The notes under the pieces: generated by a model
What the model saw: the letters and a program-made list of their open reading frames with translations, nothing else
What the model was told of the DNA's origin: nothing
The model's database searches: none
Program-made: the position numbers and the translations under genes
Assembly (NCBI GenBank): GCA_009929175.1
Contig: SABC01000003.1
Span: 1-64,000, forward strand
DNA: 64,000 nt
Direction of reading: 5' to 3'
From: Bacteroidia bacterium
Lineage (GTDB): Bacteria > Bacteroidota > Bacteroidia > Bacteroidales > UBA932
In this document: positions 8,834 through 15,453 of the stretch, one piece after another
Numbering within the stretch: position 1 is the stretch's first letter
Layout: every line of letters starts with the position of its first letter

Positions 8834-9343
8834 TTGATTATGGGCACTCTCCTAAACAATGTTGATATACTTATGTTGGTATGCTTTATTCCGGCAGTAA
8901 TCGGAGGGATCATGAGCGGCCTGGTGCGCCAGCTAGCCTCCATTTTGGCTCTTGTGCTGGGTGTTTGGGCCGGGTGGCACTTTTCCTCCATGTTATCGGA
9001 CGGAATCAAAATTTGGTTTAAGACCGAGAACGAATTACTTGATATAATCTCATTCGGCATTATTTTCATTGTTGTAATTTTTGCTGTCAATATCATCGGA
9101 AAAGCCCTTTCGGGCGTGATAAAAATGGTGCTTTTGGGATGGCTGGACAAGCTGCTGGGGGTATTGTTCGCAATTCTGAAGTATTCCTTCATTTTTAGCA
9201 TTATTATCTATCTTTTAAACTCCCTCGACGGCCTTTACCCTTTTTTGCCTCATGAAATGCTTGCAGATTCAACGATTTACCCAATCATTAAAGACCTGGC
9301 TCCTTTTCTTTTTCCCTACTTGCAAAAGGTTAATCTTTTTTAA
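8834..9343 (+). CDS. CvpA family membrane protein
   Basis: MGTLLNNVDILMLVCFIPAVIGGIMSGLVRQLASILALVLGVWAGW...; multiple TM segments. Start 8840 plausible. Confidence 0.85.
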   Translation: MIMGTLLNNVDILMLVCFIPAVIGGIMSGLVRQLASILALVLGVWAGWHFSSMLSDGIKIWFKTENELLDIISFGIIFIVVIFAVNIIGKALSGVIKMVLLGWLDKLLGVLFAILKYSFIFSIIIYLLNSLDGLYPFLPHEMLADSTIYPIIKDLAPFLFPYLQKVNLF

Positions 9344-9436: not shown

Positions 9437-9515
9437 GAACGGGACAAATGTGTGGTCAGATTAGCCTTTTATGAGCAGGAGAGGTAGTGAAGTTGGGATG
9501 TCCCGTTCTTTTTTA
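9437..9515 (+). ncRNA. Candidate small structured RNA or terminator-containing leader of the peptide-export operon
   Basis: Perfect 10-bp closing stem GAACGGGACA (9437-9446) / TGTCCCGTTC (9499-9508) followed by TTTTTTATTTTT; starts just downstream of a promoter-like sequence. Confidence 0.5.
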
Positions 9516-9530
9516 TTTTTGATTAAAGTT

Positions 9531-11627
9531 ATGGGAAGTATCAGGAGGGTAAGCATCAGGGTGAGGCAAAACGATACAAGCGACTGTGGAGCGGCAGCTT
9601 TGGCATCGGTTGCAGCCCACGCAGGAATAAGGAGTTCGGTTGCCATGCTCCGTCATTTAAGCGGAACAGACTCGTCCGGGACCACGATCAAAGGGCTTAT
9701 TGAGGCTGCCAATGCAATAGGACTTGGTGCAGAGGCTTTCCGGGGTACCGCCCAATCCCTATCCCTGGTTCCGAAACCGGCAATCCTGCATATCAAAAAA
9801 GAGAATGGAATACTCCACTATGTTGTGCTTTCAAAACATTCACGTGGTAAATTCCTTGTCATGGACCCTGCAGACGGTCAAATCCACAAAAAGGAGATCG
9901 ATAGCATATGCCACGAGTGGAGCGGTATTGTCGTGCTTTTCAGCTTTCCTGACAATCTCAGGAAAAAAGCCTCAATACTCACTTCCCACATAAGGGAATT
10001 GCTCAGGCTGATAGTTTCCCGGTGGAAGATATATCCGGCAACCCTGGCAATATCGGTGGTCAGTACCGTTTCTATGCTGGCTGTTGCTGTTTTTATAAAG
10101 GAGCTTCTGGACTCCGTGATACCGGGAGGGGATCTTGCGAGGCTCAAAATCTTCTCCCTTGCCGTGGCGGCAATAACCCTGACCTCAATCTTACTATCAG
10201 CCCTGCGTTCTTGTATGCTGGTCAAGGCGGGGGTAGGGATTGAGAAGGAACTTACGGGAGAGTACATGGAGCAACTATGCCACATACCCCTTCCTTTCTA
10301 CGGATCATTCAAAACCGGAGAGTTGACTTCCAGAATTTCCGACATCTACAGGATACGTAGTTTTGTTGCAGAGACCCTGCCGGACACCTTGGTTGCTGCA
10401 GTCACCCTTGCACTTTCGTTTTTCTTGTTGTTTTGGATAAACTCCACAATGGCCTGGTTATGCATGCTCTTCCTCCCCATATACCTGTCTGTTTTTATAG
10501 TCCATGACAAAGTTCGTAAACCGGGAATCCGGAGGCTACTGGAAAAAGGGGCTGCATTCCAGGGTTACCTGATAGAAAACCTGCGGGCAATGGCCACAAT
10601 CAGAAATTTTGGGCTCAGGAAACGGTTTATGGCCGGAGCCTCAATCAAACATAATGACCTGGCCAAAGAGCTGGTGACAACATCCAAAGCTGCAATAATT
10701 GCCGGGAGTTGCGCTGACCTGGCTTCGAGGATGCTTTCTGTCGTTATCCTGTGGTTTGGCGGAAAGGGTGTTGTTGCTGGTACATTATCGACGGGTGAGA
10801 TGGTTTCATTTTTTACAATGGCTTCGCTATTTTCTTCGCCAATGCAACAATTAGCCATCTCCTTTGCAGCATTACGTGAGGGGCTGACTGCTTCCTCCCG
10901 TTTCAATGACATCATGATGGTAAGGAGAGAACGTTACAATTCCGGTATTATCAAGGCCAGCAGCTCCGCAATTGAGGTAAGGGAGCTCTCCTTTGGTTAC
11001 CCCGGGAGGGAGATGCTCTTCAGAGGGCTCTCTTTTTCAATCGAAAAGGGAAGGATTGTATTGCTTACGGGAGAGAGCGGGTGTGGCAAAAGCACTGTAA
11101 TATCACTGATACTGAAACATCTTGTTCCAAGAGCCGGAACAATTGGCAGCTATCTGGACAGCAATTCAAATATTGAGAAATGGAGGGAGATGATTGCCTT
11201 GGTTCCCCAGAATCCCGACCTGCTAGGGGAAAGCATTATGGAGTGCATTATTCCCGGAGATCCCGGAGATCTGGACGGGAGTTACTTTTCAAGGCTTGTT
11301 AACGAACTGGAGCTGGACAAAATGGCTTCCAGGTTTCCATTTGGTTTTTCAACCCATCCGGGTGAAGGAGGAGCTCTTCTTTCCAGAGGCGAACAACAAA
11401 GGGTGGCCTATGCCAGGGCGGCGATGAAACGGGCACCTGTCATGCTTTTGGACGAGGCTACAGCCTCTCTGGATATACATTCACAAGAGCTGATCCTCAA
11501 CTCTGTATCAAGGCTCAGGGAGGAGGGATGTGCCATCCTCATTGTATCACATGATAAAAGCATATCAAAGTTAGCGGACCTTACAATAGACATGGGGTTA
11601 TACTCCTGTAAAACAATAGCATCATAA
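9531..11627 (+). CDS. Peptidase C39 domain-containing ABC transporter (double-glycine peptide exporter type)
   Basis: N-terminal C39 domain: RQNDTSDCGAAALASVAAHAG (Q/C), LHYVVL (H), VMDPADG (D); TM domain; NBD GESGCGKST, LSRGEQQRVAYARA, PVMLLDEATASLD. ORF track starts at 9471 inside the RNA hairpin; 9531 is preferred. Confidence 0.93.
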   Translation: MGSIRRVSIRVRQNDTSDCGAAALASVAAHAGIRSSVAMLRHLSGTDSSGTTIKGLIEAANAIGLGAEAFRGTAQSLSLVPKPAILHIKKENGILHYVVLSKHSRGKFLVMDPADGQIHKKEIDSICHEWSGIVVLFSFPDNLRKKASILTSHIRELLRLIVSRWKIYPATLAISVVSTVSMLAVAVFIKELLDSVIPGGDLARLKIFSLAVAAITLTSILLSALRSCMLVKAGVGIEKELTGEYMEQLCHIPLPFYGSFKTGELTSRISDIYRIRSFVAETLPDTLVAAVTLALSFFLLFWINSTMAWLCMLFLPIYLSVFIVHDKVRKPGIRRLLEKGAAFQGYLIENLRAMATIRNFGLRKRFMAGASIKHNDLAKELVTTSKAAIIAGSCADLASRMLSVVILWFGGKGVVAGTLSTGEMVSFFTMASLFSSPMQQLAISFAALREGLTASSRFNDIMMVRRERYNSGIIKASSSAIEVRELSFGYPGREMLFRGLSFSIEKGRIVLLTGESGCGKSTVISLILKHLVPRAGTIGSYLDSNSNIEKWREMIALVPQNPDLLGESIMECIIPGDPGDLDGSYFSRLVNELELDKMASRFPFGFSTHPGEGGALLSRGEQQRVAYARAAMKRAPVMLLDEATASLDIHSQELILNSVSRLREEGCAILIVSHDKSISKLADLTIDMGLYSCKTIAS

Positions 11628-11655
11628 AAAAGGAGGGTGCACACTCCTGGGTGGT

Positions 11656-11679
11656 TCCCGCACACCCTTAGCTGCGGGA
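11656..11679 (+). promoter_or_regulatory. Stem-loop TCCCGCA-N10-TGCGGGA between exporter and peptide genes
   Basis: Perfect 7-bp arms 11656-11662 and 11673-11679, then TTATATAATTA. Confidence 0.5.
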
Positions 11680-11697
11680 TTATATAATTAAATGGTC

Positions 11698-11886
11698 ATG
11701 GAAAAAATCAAGAGAGAACAATGGGGTCTTACCCCACTGGACGAGAGAGAGATGTTGCAGAATGGCGGACTTTCTCTCAGGGAGATTTGGAACTATCTCA
11801 CCCTGTTGGGTGAGGTTTTGAAAAAGGCCGAAAAATACTGGCCCAGTTTTAAACACGGTTTCGTAGACGGATGGGAGGCTGCGTGA
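11698..11886 (+). CDS. Putative double-glycine-leader precursor peptide 1
   Basis: MEKIKREQWGLTPLDEREMLQNGG | LSLREIWNYLTLLGEVLKKAEKYWPSFKHGFVDGWEAA; 24-aa leader ending GG, next to C39 exporter (ORF track start 11692). Confidence 0.75.
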   Translation: MEKIKREQWGLTPLDEREMLQNGGLSLREIWNYLTLLGEVLKKAEKYWPSFKHGFVDGWEAA

Positions 11887-12098
11887 TGGAAAGGAGTAAC
11901 AACGCAATGATGCTGATACCATTGACTTACGGAGAAATGTTAATGGTAAGGGGTGGTTCCGAAGGATGGGACCACGATATTGCCGAACAACTAGGCAGAG
12001 GAGCCGGATACACGGTTAAGAAATTATGGAGGCTTTTTCTGTTCATGAGTAAGAATCTCTACGAACTGCAGGCTAATACTCAGGTAATTTACAAATAG
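11886..12098 (+). CDS. Putative double-glycine-leader precursor peptide 2
   Basis: MERSNNAMMLIPLTYGEMLMVRGG | SEGWDHDIAEQLGRGAGYTVKKLWRLFLFMSKNLYELQANTQVIYK; LTYGEMLMVRGG fits LSxxELxxIxGG; start overlaps the preceding stop (TGATG). ORF track start 11871. Confidence 0.75.
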   Translation: MERSNNAMMLIPLTYGEMLMVRGGSEGWDHDIAEQLGRGAGYTVKKLWRLFLFMSKNLYELQANTQVIYK

Positions 12099-12153
12099 AT
12101 TCCCGGAGAAAATATTCCCCTCACGGGAGTTTGTTATTGAAAAAAATATAACT

Positions 12154-13482
12154 TTGTCGATTATGAAAAATAGATACAAACTCCCGTTATTATTCTTCCT
12201 GTTTTTCCCGCTCTTTTCTTTTTCACAAAAGAGCTGGACATTAGAGCAGTGCATCCGGTATGCATGGGAAAACAACCTGCAGCTCAAGCAACAGGAACTC
12301 GCCGTGGAACAAAGTGAAAACCAGTACAACCAGGCAAGGTTGAACTTTGTACCCTCTGTAAGTGCTTCCCTGAGTCATTCTATGAACTGGGGACGCTCGG
12401 TAAACGTGCAGGACCTGGAGATTATTGAAAACAAATTATCCCAGAGCACCAGCGCAAGTGCAAGGGCGGCAGTGAACCTTTTCGAAGGATTCACCAAAAC
12501 CAATGATTTGAAAAGCAAGAGTGTACAGATGGAGATAAGCCGCAGCGAAGTTGAAAAACTCCGCAATGATATCTCTGTGGAGATTGCCCGCTCATATCTG
12601 CAGATCCTATTGTCGGGGGAGATTCTGGAGGCCTCTCTTCAAAGTCTTGAATCAACGACCATTCAGGCCGAAAGGACTAAAAAACTAGTGGATGCAGGCA
12701 GCCTTGCATACAGTTCCCAGCTGGAGATTGAGGCACAGATAGCGGCCGAAAAAGTCCAGGTTGTGAATGCCCAAAACCAGCTCCGCAGTGCCATGCTCTC
12801 GCTTGAACAGCTGTTGGACCTGCCCGAAAATGCAGATTTCGGTATTGAGAAAGTAGAGATAGACTTCCTTATCAAAGACCACCATAATATTTCTGTGGAC
12901 GAACTTTTCCAAAGCTCACTCTCCCTTCCACAAATGAGGATAGCCGAGCTCAACCTCAAGAACTCCGAACTACAACTTGCAATTGCAAAAGGGAGGCTCT
13001 ATCCTTCCATATCTTTCTCTGCAGGTTACGGGAGCTACTACAGTGACAGCAGGGACCAATCCTTCTTTGACCAGTTTAACGAAAACCGCAATCCATCACT
13101 GGGTTTTGGCCTGAACATACCGATTTTCAACAATTACATGGTACGCACCAACGTGAAAAACGCACAGCTGGGTGTAACCAACTCCAAACTGGACCAAAAA
13201 TACAGGCAACAGCTGCTATACAAGGAAATCCAACAAGCCGGAAACGATGCCCTCTCCTATTTTGAAAGGTACAAGGCATCCGGACAAAACGTGAAAGCAA
13301 TGGAGGAGTCTTTCCGCTATGTACAGCAAAAATTTGACGTTGGTGTATTGAATGCTACAGATTACTCGGTTGCAAAGTCCAACCTGTTCCGTGCACGCTC
13401 CGAATATTACCAGGCCAAATACCAATATGTATTCCAGCTTAAGATCCTCGATTTTTACAAGGGAATCCCCATTTCACTATAA
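12154..13482 (+). CDS. TolC family outer membrane efflux protein
   Basis: Signal peptide then SWTLEQCIRYAWENNLQLKQQELAVEQSENQYNQARLNFVPSVSASLS; OEP duplicated architecture. Confidence 0.93.
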   Translation: MSIMKNRYKLPLLFFLFFPLFSFSQKSWTLEQCIRYAWENNLQLKQQELAVEQSENQYNQARLNFVPSVSASLSHSMNWGRSVNVQDLEIIENKLSQSTSASARAAVNLFEGFTKTNDLKSKSVQMEISRSEVEKLRNDISVEIARSYLQILLSGEILEASLQSLESTTIQAERTKKLVDAGSLAYSSQLEIEAQIAAEKVQVVNAQNQLRSAMLSLEQLLDLPENADFGIEKVEIDFLIKDHHNISVDELFQSSLSLPQMRIAELNLKNSELQLAIAKGRLYPSISFSAGYGSYYSDSRDQSFFDQFNENRNPSLGFGLNIPIFNNYMVRTNVKNAQLGVTNSKLDQKYRQQLLYKEIQQAGNDALSYFERYKASGQNVKAMEESFRYVQQKFDVGVLNATDYSVAKSNLFRARSEYYQAKYQYVFQLKILDFYKGIPISL

Positions 13483-13497
13483 ATAAAAAGCACCAAT

Positions 13498-14751
13498 ATG
13501 TTTAAAAAATCTATCAAATGGATTATTGCTGCGGCTGTGGTTTTAGTAATATTACTGGCCTGGTACGGCAGCAAAAAGGGCAAAGCAGAGACTCCCGTAA
13601 CAATAGAAACGATATCGTTAAGGACAATCACTGAGGTTATCCCTGCAAACGGCAAGATCAAACCAGTCACAGAGGTAAAAATCAGCCCTGATGTTTCGGG
13701 AGAAATCGTGGAGCTCCACTTCAAAGAGGGAGACCCTATTAAAAGGGGCGACCTTATAATCAAAATAAAACAAGACGTTTACATCTCCATGAGAGAGCGT
13801 GCAGAGGCTTCACTCAATTCGGTTAAGGCCCAGCTTTCCCAACAGATGGCCCAGTTCGAACAGATCCGGCAGGCCTATGAGAGGAGCAAAATACTTTTTG
13901 GTCAAAAAGCCATTTCGGAGTCTGAATACGAAAATGCCTTTTCCCAGTACGAGGTTGCAAAAGCACAAATAGAGGCGGCCGAGTTCAACGTTAAAAGTGC
14001 TACTGCTGCCCTTAAGGAAGCACAGGAAAACCTGGTCAAAACAGTGATTTATGCACCTATGGACGGGATCATATCCAAAATGAGTGTAGAAAAGGGGGAA
14101 CGTGTTGTTGGTACCAGCCAGATGGCGGGTACCGAAATGCTCCGTATTGCCAATTTCGACAATATGGAGGTTTTGGTGGATGTGAATGAAAACGACATTA
14201 TCCGCATCAAGCAGGGTGATACCGCCACCATTGACGTGGATGCCTATCCCGGGAGGAAGTTCACCGGGATTGTAACCCAAATAGCCAACTCAGCCAAAAA
14301 CATAGGGTCGGCTATAGACCAGGTAACAAACTTCGAAGTCAAGGTGTATGTTTTGCCTGAATCCTACCATGATCTTAATCTGGAAGGCAAAAACCCTTTC
14401 CGGCCGGGCATGTCTGCCTCTGTTTCGGTACAGACAAACCGTCGCGAAAACGTAGTAGCCATTCCTCTTCAGGCTATTACAACCAGGACAGACCTTATGA
14501 GTGACTCTTTAAAGAACTCTTTGGGGATAAATGAGTCCAGGGAGCAGGTGTTTGTTGTAAAGCAAGACAACACCGTAGAGGTACGTGAAATTACAACGGG
14601 AATACAAGACCTTAACTATATAGAAGTTGTAACCGGCCTTACTGATGGAGAAAGAATAGTAACCGCTCCTTTCTCGGCTATCAGCAAAAATCTTAAACCG
14701 GGAACCACAGTCAAACATGAGGAAAAAGAGAAGCCCGGCACTATCAAATAG
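13498..14751 (+). CDS. Efflux periplasmic adaptor subunit (HlyD/MacA-like membrane fusion protein)
   Basis: N-terminal TM, GEIVELHFKEGDPIKRGDLIIKI lipoyl half-motif, coiled coil, VIYAPMDGIISKMSVEKGERVVG. Confidence 0.93.
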   Translation: MFKKSIKWIIAAAVVLVILLAWYGSKKGKAETPVTIETISLRTITEVIPANGKIKPVTEVKISPDVSGEIVELHFKEGDPIKRGDLIIKIKQDVYISMRERAEASLNSVKAQLSQQMAQFEQIRQAYERSKILFGQKAISESEYENAFSQYEVAKAQIEAAEFNVKSATAALKEAQENLVKTVIYAPMDGIISKMSVEKGERVVGTSQMAGTEMLRIANFDNMEVLVDVNENDIIRIKQGDTATIDVDAYPGRKFTGIVTQIANSAKNIGSAIDQVTNFEVKVYVLPESYHDLNLEGKNPFRPGMSASVSVQTNRRENVVAIPLQAITTRTDLMSDSLKNSLGINESREQVFVVKQDNTVEVREITTGIQDLNYIEVVTGLTDGERIVTAPFSAISKNLKPGTTVKHEEKEKPGTIK

Positions 14752-14757
14752 AATGTA

Positions 14758-15453
14758 ATGAGCGAAAAAGAACCTTTAATACTATTGGTCGAGACAGCAA
14801 CCGAACTTTGTTCGGTTGCTCTTTCTTACAGAGGAGAAATATTGGGAGAAGAGATTTCAAGGGAGCCTCGTTCACACGCATCCCTGATATCTGTAATGAC
14901 AATCAAATTAATGGAAAAGACTGGTTATACCATCCCAATGTGCGATGCTGTTGCTGTGAGCCATGGTCCGGGATCATATACCGGGCTAAGGGTCGGCGTA
15001 TCCTTTGCTAAGGGTATTTGCTACGCCGTTTCCAAGCCCCTGATTGCAATCGGAACCCTTGACATCATTGCTGCAATGACAGCAGGTACCTATGCCCTGG
15101 ACAACTCCTCATACATCGTTCCCATGATTGATGCTCGAAGGATGGAGGTCTACACTGCCACATACGATTCCAAAGGAAAAAGGATCAAGGATGTCGAGGC
15201 TTTGGTTGTTAAAGAGGATAGTTTTGACCGGCTGCTGGAAAGTGGAGAACTCTTTTTTTGCGGGGACGGCTCTGTTAAGGTAAAGCCAATTATCCGCCAT
15301 CCCAATGCAAGGTTTGTCGAGGCAGAGCCGTTGGCGTCCAATATGTCCCGTATTGCAACCCAAATCTACAAAACAAAAAAGTTTGAAGATTTGGCATACT
15401 TCGAACCTTTCTATTTAAAGGAGTTTATTGCAGGAAAGCCGACTACCTCATGA
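14758..15453 (+). CDS. tsaB: tRNA threonylcarbamoyladenosine biosynthesis protein TsaB
   Basis: ILLVETATELCSVALSYRGEILGE, AVSHGPGSYTGLRVGVSFAKGICYA. Confidence 0.95.
   Translation: MSEKEPLILLVETATELCSVALSYRGEILGEEISREPRSHASLISVMTIKLMEKTGYTIPMCDAVAVSHGPGSYTGLRVGVSFAKGICYAVSKPLIAIGTLDIIAAMTAGTYALDNSSYIVPMIDARRMEVYTATYDSKGKRIKDVEALVVKEDSFDRLLESGELFFCGDGSVKVKPIIRHPNARFVEAEPLASNMSRIATQIYKTKKFEDLAYFEPFYLKEFIAGKPTTS

Follow-up and report, generated by a model that had tools for sequence, protein, structure and literature searches.

Most known class IIb two-peptide bacteriocins come from Gram-positive bacteria; the Gram-negative parallel is the Cdz system. In class IIb loci such as those of plantaricin EF/JK and lactococcin G, adjacent genes encode two peptides with double-glycine (GG) leaders and helical, GxxxG-containing cores, accompanied by a C39-type ATP-binding cassette (ABC) exporter and an immunity protein of the CPBP/Abi type (PMC8538875). 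The Abi family includes PlnI, PlnL, and SkkI, which confer immunity to two-peptide and related bacteriocins (PMC8538875). The Cdz system of Caulobacter is a Gram-negative two-protein system, CdzC and CdzD, that uses type I secretion; its peptides carry GxxxGxxxG glycine zippers, a small membrane protein, CdzI, provides immunity, and the system has spread mostly horizontally (PMC5380434). The bacteroidetocins of Bacteroidales are cysteine-containing, class IIa-like peptides with GG leaders and a bacteriocin peptidase/transporter; no immunity protein accompanies them, and their producers inhibit themselves (PMC6671954). Colicin V (microcin V) is exported by CvaB/CvaA/TolC, that is, by a C39 exporter, a periplasmic adaptor, and TolC (PMC10352776). 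Here, we describe a locus in a 64,000-nucleotide stretch of DNA (the window; positions 1 to 64,000 of contig SABC01000003.1, assembly GCA_009929175.1) from a Bacteroidia bacterium of the order Bacteroidales. A C39-ABC exporter, two small peptide genes (pep1 and pep2), a TolC-family channel, and a periplasmic adaptor follow one another in that order, all on the + strand, between cvpA and tsaB. We propose, with a probability of roughly 0.58, that the locus specifies an exported, class IIb-like, membrane-active peptide pair.

The locus resembles class IIb systems in its adjacent GG-leader peptides, its C39-ABC exporter, and its helical GxxxG cores, and also in a CPBP/Abi-type gene, found here in a sister genus. 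It differs in its Gram-negative host, in the TolC channel and MacA-type adaptor, in an RNA pseudoknot before the peptides, in having no immunity gene in the genus, in its near-neutral cores, in its status as a core, vertically inherited locus, and in the lack of a family-model match for the peptides of the window. Compared with the published description of Cdz, each peptide has one conserved GxxxG, no CdzI-like gene is found, and inheritance is vertical. Unlike those of the bacteroidetocins, the cores in the window are cysteine-free. Unlike the colicin V system, this one has two helical peptides and a MacA/RND-type adaptor, and cvpA is merely a conserved flank. The initial annotation had placed the genes correctly and in the right order, and all the large ones are confirmed by Pfam. 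The features are as follows.

9531 to 11627, + strand: C39 peptidase-ABC exporter (Pfam PF03412, PF00664, and PF00005 above cut-off; alternative longer start at 9471).
11632 to 11682, + strand: structured RNA, a hairpin and then an H-type pseudoknot (covariation and covariance-model matches).
11698 to 11886, + strand: pep1 precursor (open reading frame (ORF) opens at 11692), 24-residue GG leader, 38-residue core, GxxxG = GFVDG.
11886 to 12098, + strand: pep2 precursor, 24-residue GG leader, 46-residue core, GxxxG = GRGAG.
12163 to 13482, + strand: TolC-family outer-membrane channel (OEP, PF02321, E = 9.4e-49).
13498 to 14751, + strand: RND/MacA-type periplasmic adaptor (TIGR01730, 195 bits, cut-off 94.9).
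8834 to 9343, + strand: cvpA, a conserved flank outside the cassette (PF02674, E = 1.4e-26; synteny).
14758 to 15453, + strand: tsaB, a conserved flank (PF00814, E = 3.5e-26; synteny).

The conservation of the two small ORFs, which the initial annotation had called candidate cargo and had proposed to check by a neighbourhood search, marks pep1 and pep2 as real genes and genuine C39-type cargo. The pep1 precursor consists of the leader MEKIKREQWGLTPLDEREMLQNGG and the core LSLREIWNYLTLLGEVLKKAEKYWPSFKHGFVDGWEAA, and the pep2 precursor of the leader MERSNNAMMLIPLTYGEMLMVRGG and the core SEGWDHDIAEQLGRGAGYTVKKLWRLFLFMSKNLYELQANTQVIYK; the pep2 ATG overlaps the pep1 stop codon (TGATG). The two precursors lie side by side, as overlapping or adjacent genes with GG leaders of the usual size, in 67 loci from 12 genera, with mean core lengths of 40 (pep1) and 43 (pep2) residues. 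A leader ending in AG instead of GG is rare and is seen in some pep2 of the genus g46. The pep1 and pep2 leaders look related to each other (hhalign E = 9.1e-6, probability 83%). By our own sums over eight independent close pairs, the ratio of nonsynonymous to synonymous substitution (dN/dS) of the cores is about 0.06 for pep1 and 0.07 for pep2, indicating purifying selection, and in close pairs the pep2 cores are more conserved than their leaders. Across 41 diverse cores, the only invariant columns of pep1 are both glycines of GxxxG, and the only one of pep2 is the last glycine of [G/A]xxxG. Every pep1 has a strict GxxxG (67/67, against 16.5 expected from shuffled cores), as do 55/67 pep2 (18.2 expected), the remaining pep2 having AxxxG. 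AlphaFold predicts a single helix for each peptide (pLDDT 93.7 for pep1 and 83.5 for pep2), and the hydrophobic moment of both window cores exceeds that of all 200 shuffles, as befits amphipathic helices. It is this design, matching that of class IIb apart from charge (PMC8538875), that upholds the earlier suggestion of a two-peptide bacteriocin candidate.

The exporter contains Peptidase_C39 (E = 4.6e-27), ABC_membrane, and ABC_tran domains, all above the Pfam cut-offs. Q33, C39, H116, and D132, together with the motifs of the nucleotide-binding domain, are invariant in 64/64 orthologues, bearing out the reported intact C39 domain. A C39 domain with Q/C/H/D, fused to a full ABC half-transporter, identifies the protein as a peptidase-containing ABC transporter. 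It is the fastest-diverging gene of the locus, with a within-genus mean identity of 0.45 versus 0.68 for TolC and 0.74 for MacA. A second C39 exporter occurs in the same genus (G000:C190:250-2331, L130; L228-L243), 66–82% identical to the own copy. In several genomes, a different short GG peptide (leader METTFEKLNDQEMVNVVGG, core DRVLEITDKYGNVWYIIVKEEEVPENPQP) lies upstream of it, and in several an adaptor-like gene of about 430 residues lies downstream.

In the mechanism that we propose, the C39 domain would cut the GG leaders off pep1 and pep2, and the ABC exporter would move the 38- and 46-residue cores out of the cell, most likely via TolC and the adjoining MacA-type adaptor. Once outside, the amphipathic helices of the two peptides would pair by their GxxxG faces and target the membranes of other cells, in the manner of lactococcin G or plantaricin EF. 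Peptide expression would be set separately from that of the exporter by the pseudoknot RNA.

This RNA element, which the initial annotation had not picked up, begins 5 bases past the stop codon of the C39 gene and ends about 15–25 nt upstream of the pep1 start. The hairpin (11632-11647, GGAGGGTGCACACTCC) has a palindromic GTGCAC/GCGC loop. In the H-type pseudoknot, stem S1 pairs 11649-11653 with 11663-11667, and stem S2 pairs 11656-11662 with 11673-11679. Covariation in the pseudoknot stems is 0.560, versus 0.260 when shuffled (0/500) and at most 0.20 in slid controls, in an almost gap-free alignment of 20 sequences picked for equal geometry by a pairing-maximising search. The hairpin is supported less rigorously than the pseudoknot because its stem counts come from that pairing-maximising search. 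A covariance model gives one match each in 45 of 150 family genomes, all 45 before the peptides: 43 immediately precede a called pep1, another (L280) precedes a pep1 truncated by the end of its contig, and the last (L279) precedes a divergent pep1-pep2 pair overlooked by the peptide model. Across 393 genomes of the order, the model finds four matches, all in family members. With at most one mismatch allowed, a single copy of the hairpin sequence is present in each of 20 out of the 25 genomes of the genus. Searches of Rfam came up empty, at E ≤ 1 for the window and at E ≤ 0.5 for five relatives. We take the hairpin and pseudoknot together to be a previously undescribed RNA element. Since it stands between the exporter and the peptides, its most likely role is to uncouple peptide expression from that of the exporter, via processing, stability, or regulated translation. 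In several relatives (L118, L119, L152, and L157), the hairpin is a perfect palindrome of 12–16 nt with a GTGCAC or GCGC centre. Such a palindromic hairpin could allow RNA dimerisation through kissing loops.

Wherever contigs allow, the gene order in the genus is ileS (on the − strand), cvpA, C39, pep1, pep2, tolC, macA, and tsaB. The place of the locus, between ileS/cvpA and tsaB, is the same for all 24 loci fetched from the genus and across 12 genera of a single Bacteroidales family; when 60 relatives were searched, the exporter, pep1, and the adaptor turned up both within the genus and in other genera of the family. Among the relatives with the locus are Bacteroidales bacterium CF (CP006772.1) and numerous metagenome-assembled genomes. 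In four loci (L116, L117, L119, and L165), ileS and cvpA are relocated, with C39-pep-tolC-macA-tsaB still together. With the housekeeping genes cvpA and tsaB on its two sides, the unit is not an island. Searches recovered pep1 from every one of the 25 genomes of the genus that were covered, from 149 of 300 genomes of the family (12 of 26 genera), and from 0 of 395 other genomes of the phylum. Across 393 genomes of the order, two weak matches alone fall outside the family. One (L281:2221-2493, on a 3-kb contig) is a peptide of another family (G046) with AGG and FIHGFREGYKAG, weakly pep1-like (E = 3.2e-4); the other (L282) matches in the leader portion alone. This family-wide vertical conservation had also gone unremarked in the initial annotation.

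Several findings weigh against a bacteriocin. In the genus of the window, nothing besides the two peptides is conserved between C39 and tolC, in keeping with the earlier remark that no immunity gene was obvious; none is found in this operon. The suggestion that an unannotated ORF might hide one fails: antisense ORFs over the peptides were considered as hidden immunity genes and rejected, their frames carrying stops in most relatives. The window cores have net charges of 0 and +1, and known class IIb peptides are mostly cationic. The locus is core and vertically inherited, and bacteriocin loci are usually accessory. Neither window peptide matches a family in Pfam or NCBIfam, class IIb models included, and Pfam gave nothing of note for other pep2 members. 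Among the 33 pep1 and 21 pep2 scanned with the class IIb models, one peptide alone passes a cut-off: the pep1-like peptide of genus g42, which exceeds that of the NCBIfam lactobin A/cerein 7B model (TIGR03949, 25.1 vs 21.5 bits) and sits with a C39 exporter of another lineage. Weak NCBIfam matches to lactococcin G models (E 0.0012 to 0.08) are not counted as evidence. Because an immunity gene and a family-model match were both sought and not found, we do not file the pair as a class IIb bacteriocin. Finally, the outer part of the proposed export route occurs without the cassette: tolC-macA-tsaB is present without C39 or peptides in three other families (L128, L129, and L132), and two genera of the same family, g8 and g9, likewise have cvpA-tolC-macA without them (L121 and L122).

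This last point bears on the nature of the secretion unit. The adaptor, which scores 195 bits against RND_mfp (TIGR01730), falls below the cut-offs of the type I secretion HlyD model (TIGR01843, 62 vs 208.65) and of the bacteriocin accessory model (TIGR01000, 26 vs 258.85). By these curated cut-offs, it is classed as an RND/MacA-type adaptor and not as one of type I secretion or bacteriocin export. MacB was considered as a possible partner of the adaptor: in the outgroup loci, no macB lies next to tolC-macA, and three MacB-domain genes above cut-off are located elsewhere in the genome. Since TolC and MacA exist without C39 or peptides in other families and in g8 and g9, they are probably older than the exporter-peptide cassette and were recruited to it. 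In this family, the cassette probably entered between cvpA and tolC; alternatively, it was lost in g8 and g9. Of the complete secretion unit with its own cargo that had been put forward, the cargo stands, and completeness is called into question by a MacA-type adaptor and a TolC that both occur without C39. As a separate observation, tolC and a MacA-type adaptor without an adjoining inner-membrane pump, mostly beside tsaB, are found in several Bacteroidales families (L121, L122, L128, L129, and L132).

It is possible, though we consider it doubtful, that the exporter does not work with TolC and the MacA-type adaptor; the peptides would then use a different adaptor, for instance the HlyD-like one next to the second C39 exporter, and the neighbourhood would be historical. 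The class of the adaptor and the loci without C39 agree with this, as does the adaptor-like gene that adjoins other C39 exporters of these bacteria (L120, L127, and the second system). Against it, the cassette stays with tolC-macA in 12 genera, even after separation from ileS/cvpA, and the locus holds no other adaptor gene.

The main alternative, though a rather unlikely one, is that the peptide pair retained the two-helix design but is not a weapon, and is instead a family signal, a kin-recognition factor, or an envelope-acting factor, with immunity lost or never needed. Such a role would suit the presence of pep1 throughout the genus and the vertical inheritance, for which the strong correlation between exporter and TolC distances (r = 0.91) is the expected pattern; it would also suit the absence of an immunity gene at the locus, the near-neutral cores, the pep2 cores more conserved than their leaders, and the dedicated RNA in front of the peptides. 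However, no two-component receptor gene is found among the conserved neighbours, and two long GxxxG amphipathic helices are unlike the known short pheromones. Moreover, in the sister genus g46, an immunity-type gene is present, a feature that the initial annotation had not picked up: a gene for a CPBP/Rce1-like membrane protein, of the immunity family of PlnI and PlnL (PMC8538875), directly follows pep2 in 12/12 loci (E = 1.5e-14 and 8e-15), and its products show EExxxR, FxxxH, and HxxxN-type motifs. The absence of such a gene elsewhere is compatible with a bacteriocin in this order because bacteroidetocin producers inhibit themselves (PMC6671954).

Among the genera fetched, a CPBP gene is at the locus only in g46 and in g42 (1 locus). 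Because g46 is sister to all other genera in the C39 tree (support 0.979 for the whole clade), a CPBP protector may be ancestral and later lost, or may have been gained once. At the same site, g42 has a CPBP gene, a C39 exporter of another lineage, a third GG peptide, and the pep1-like peptide whose score above a class IIb cut-off speaks for the class IIb-like reading. This C39 falls outside the clade, and for this reason it is not counted as an orthologous exporter; the g42 locus is treated as a replacement by a related system. The third GG-leader peptide (L169:5224-5379) follows the CPBP gene, and its leader resembles that of pep1; the RNA covariance model finds nothing at the g42 locus. CPBP genes elsewhere in the window's own genome (C190:44886 and C6:54286) were considered as a source of immunity in trans and set aside: they show no specific link, because CPBP genes recur in most genomes of the order.

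There is a negligible probability that the small ORFs arose by chance or are remnants in decay and that the exporter serves another cargo: the genes are short and have no database family match in the window, but they are conserved in 67 loci of 12 genera with the GG correctly placed, low dN/dS, and a structured RNA in front, which refutes this reading.

Beyond the class IIb-like peptide pair that we favour, it is tempting to propose, tentatively, that this family-wide, vertically inherited two-helix system is a fixed trait and no accessory weapon, serving self or kin recognition, population control, or an envelope function, and that its peptide synthesis would be gated by a new class of hairpin-pseudoknot RNA with no other copies in the genomes. 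The host genus is largely uncultured, and the 12 genera of the family are mostly known from metagenomes. If the peptide pair is as proposed, it would show that a class IIb-like design can turn into a core trait at one orthologous locus, both where an immunity gene accompanies it and where none does. Comparing the genus g46, with its CPBP gene, with the genera without one would then amount to a natural experiment on producers' tolerance of these peptides, and the covarying RNA would offer a new handle on how the ratio of peptide to exporter is set.
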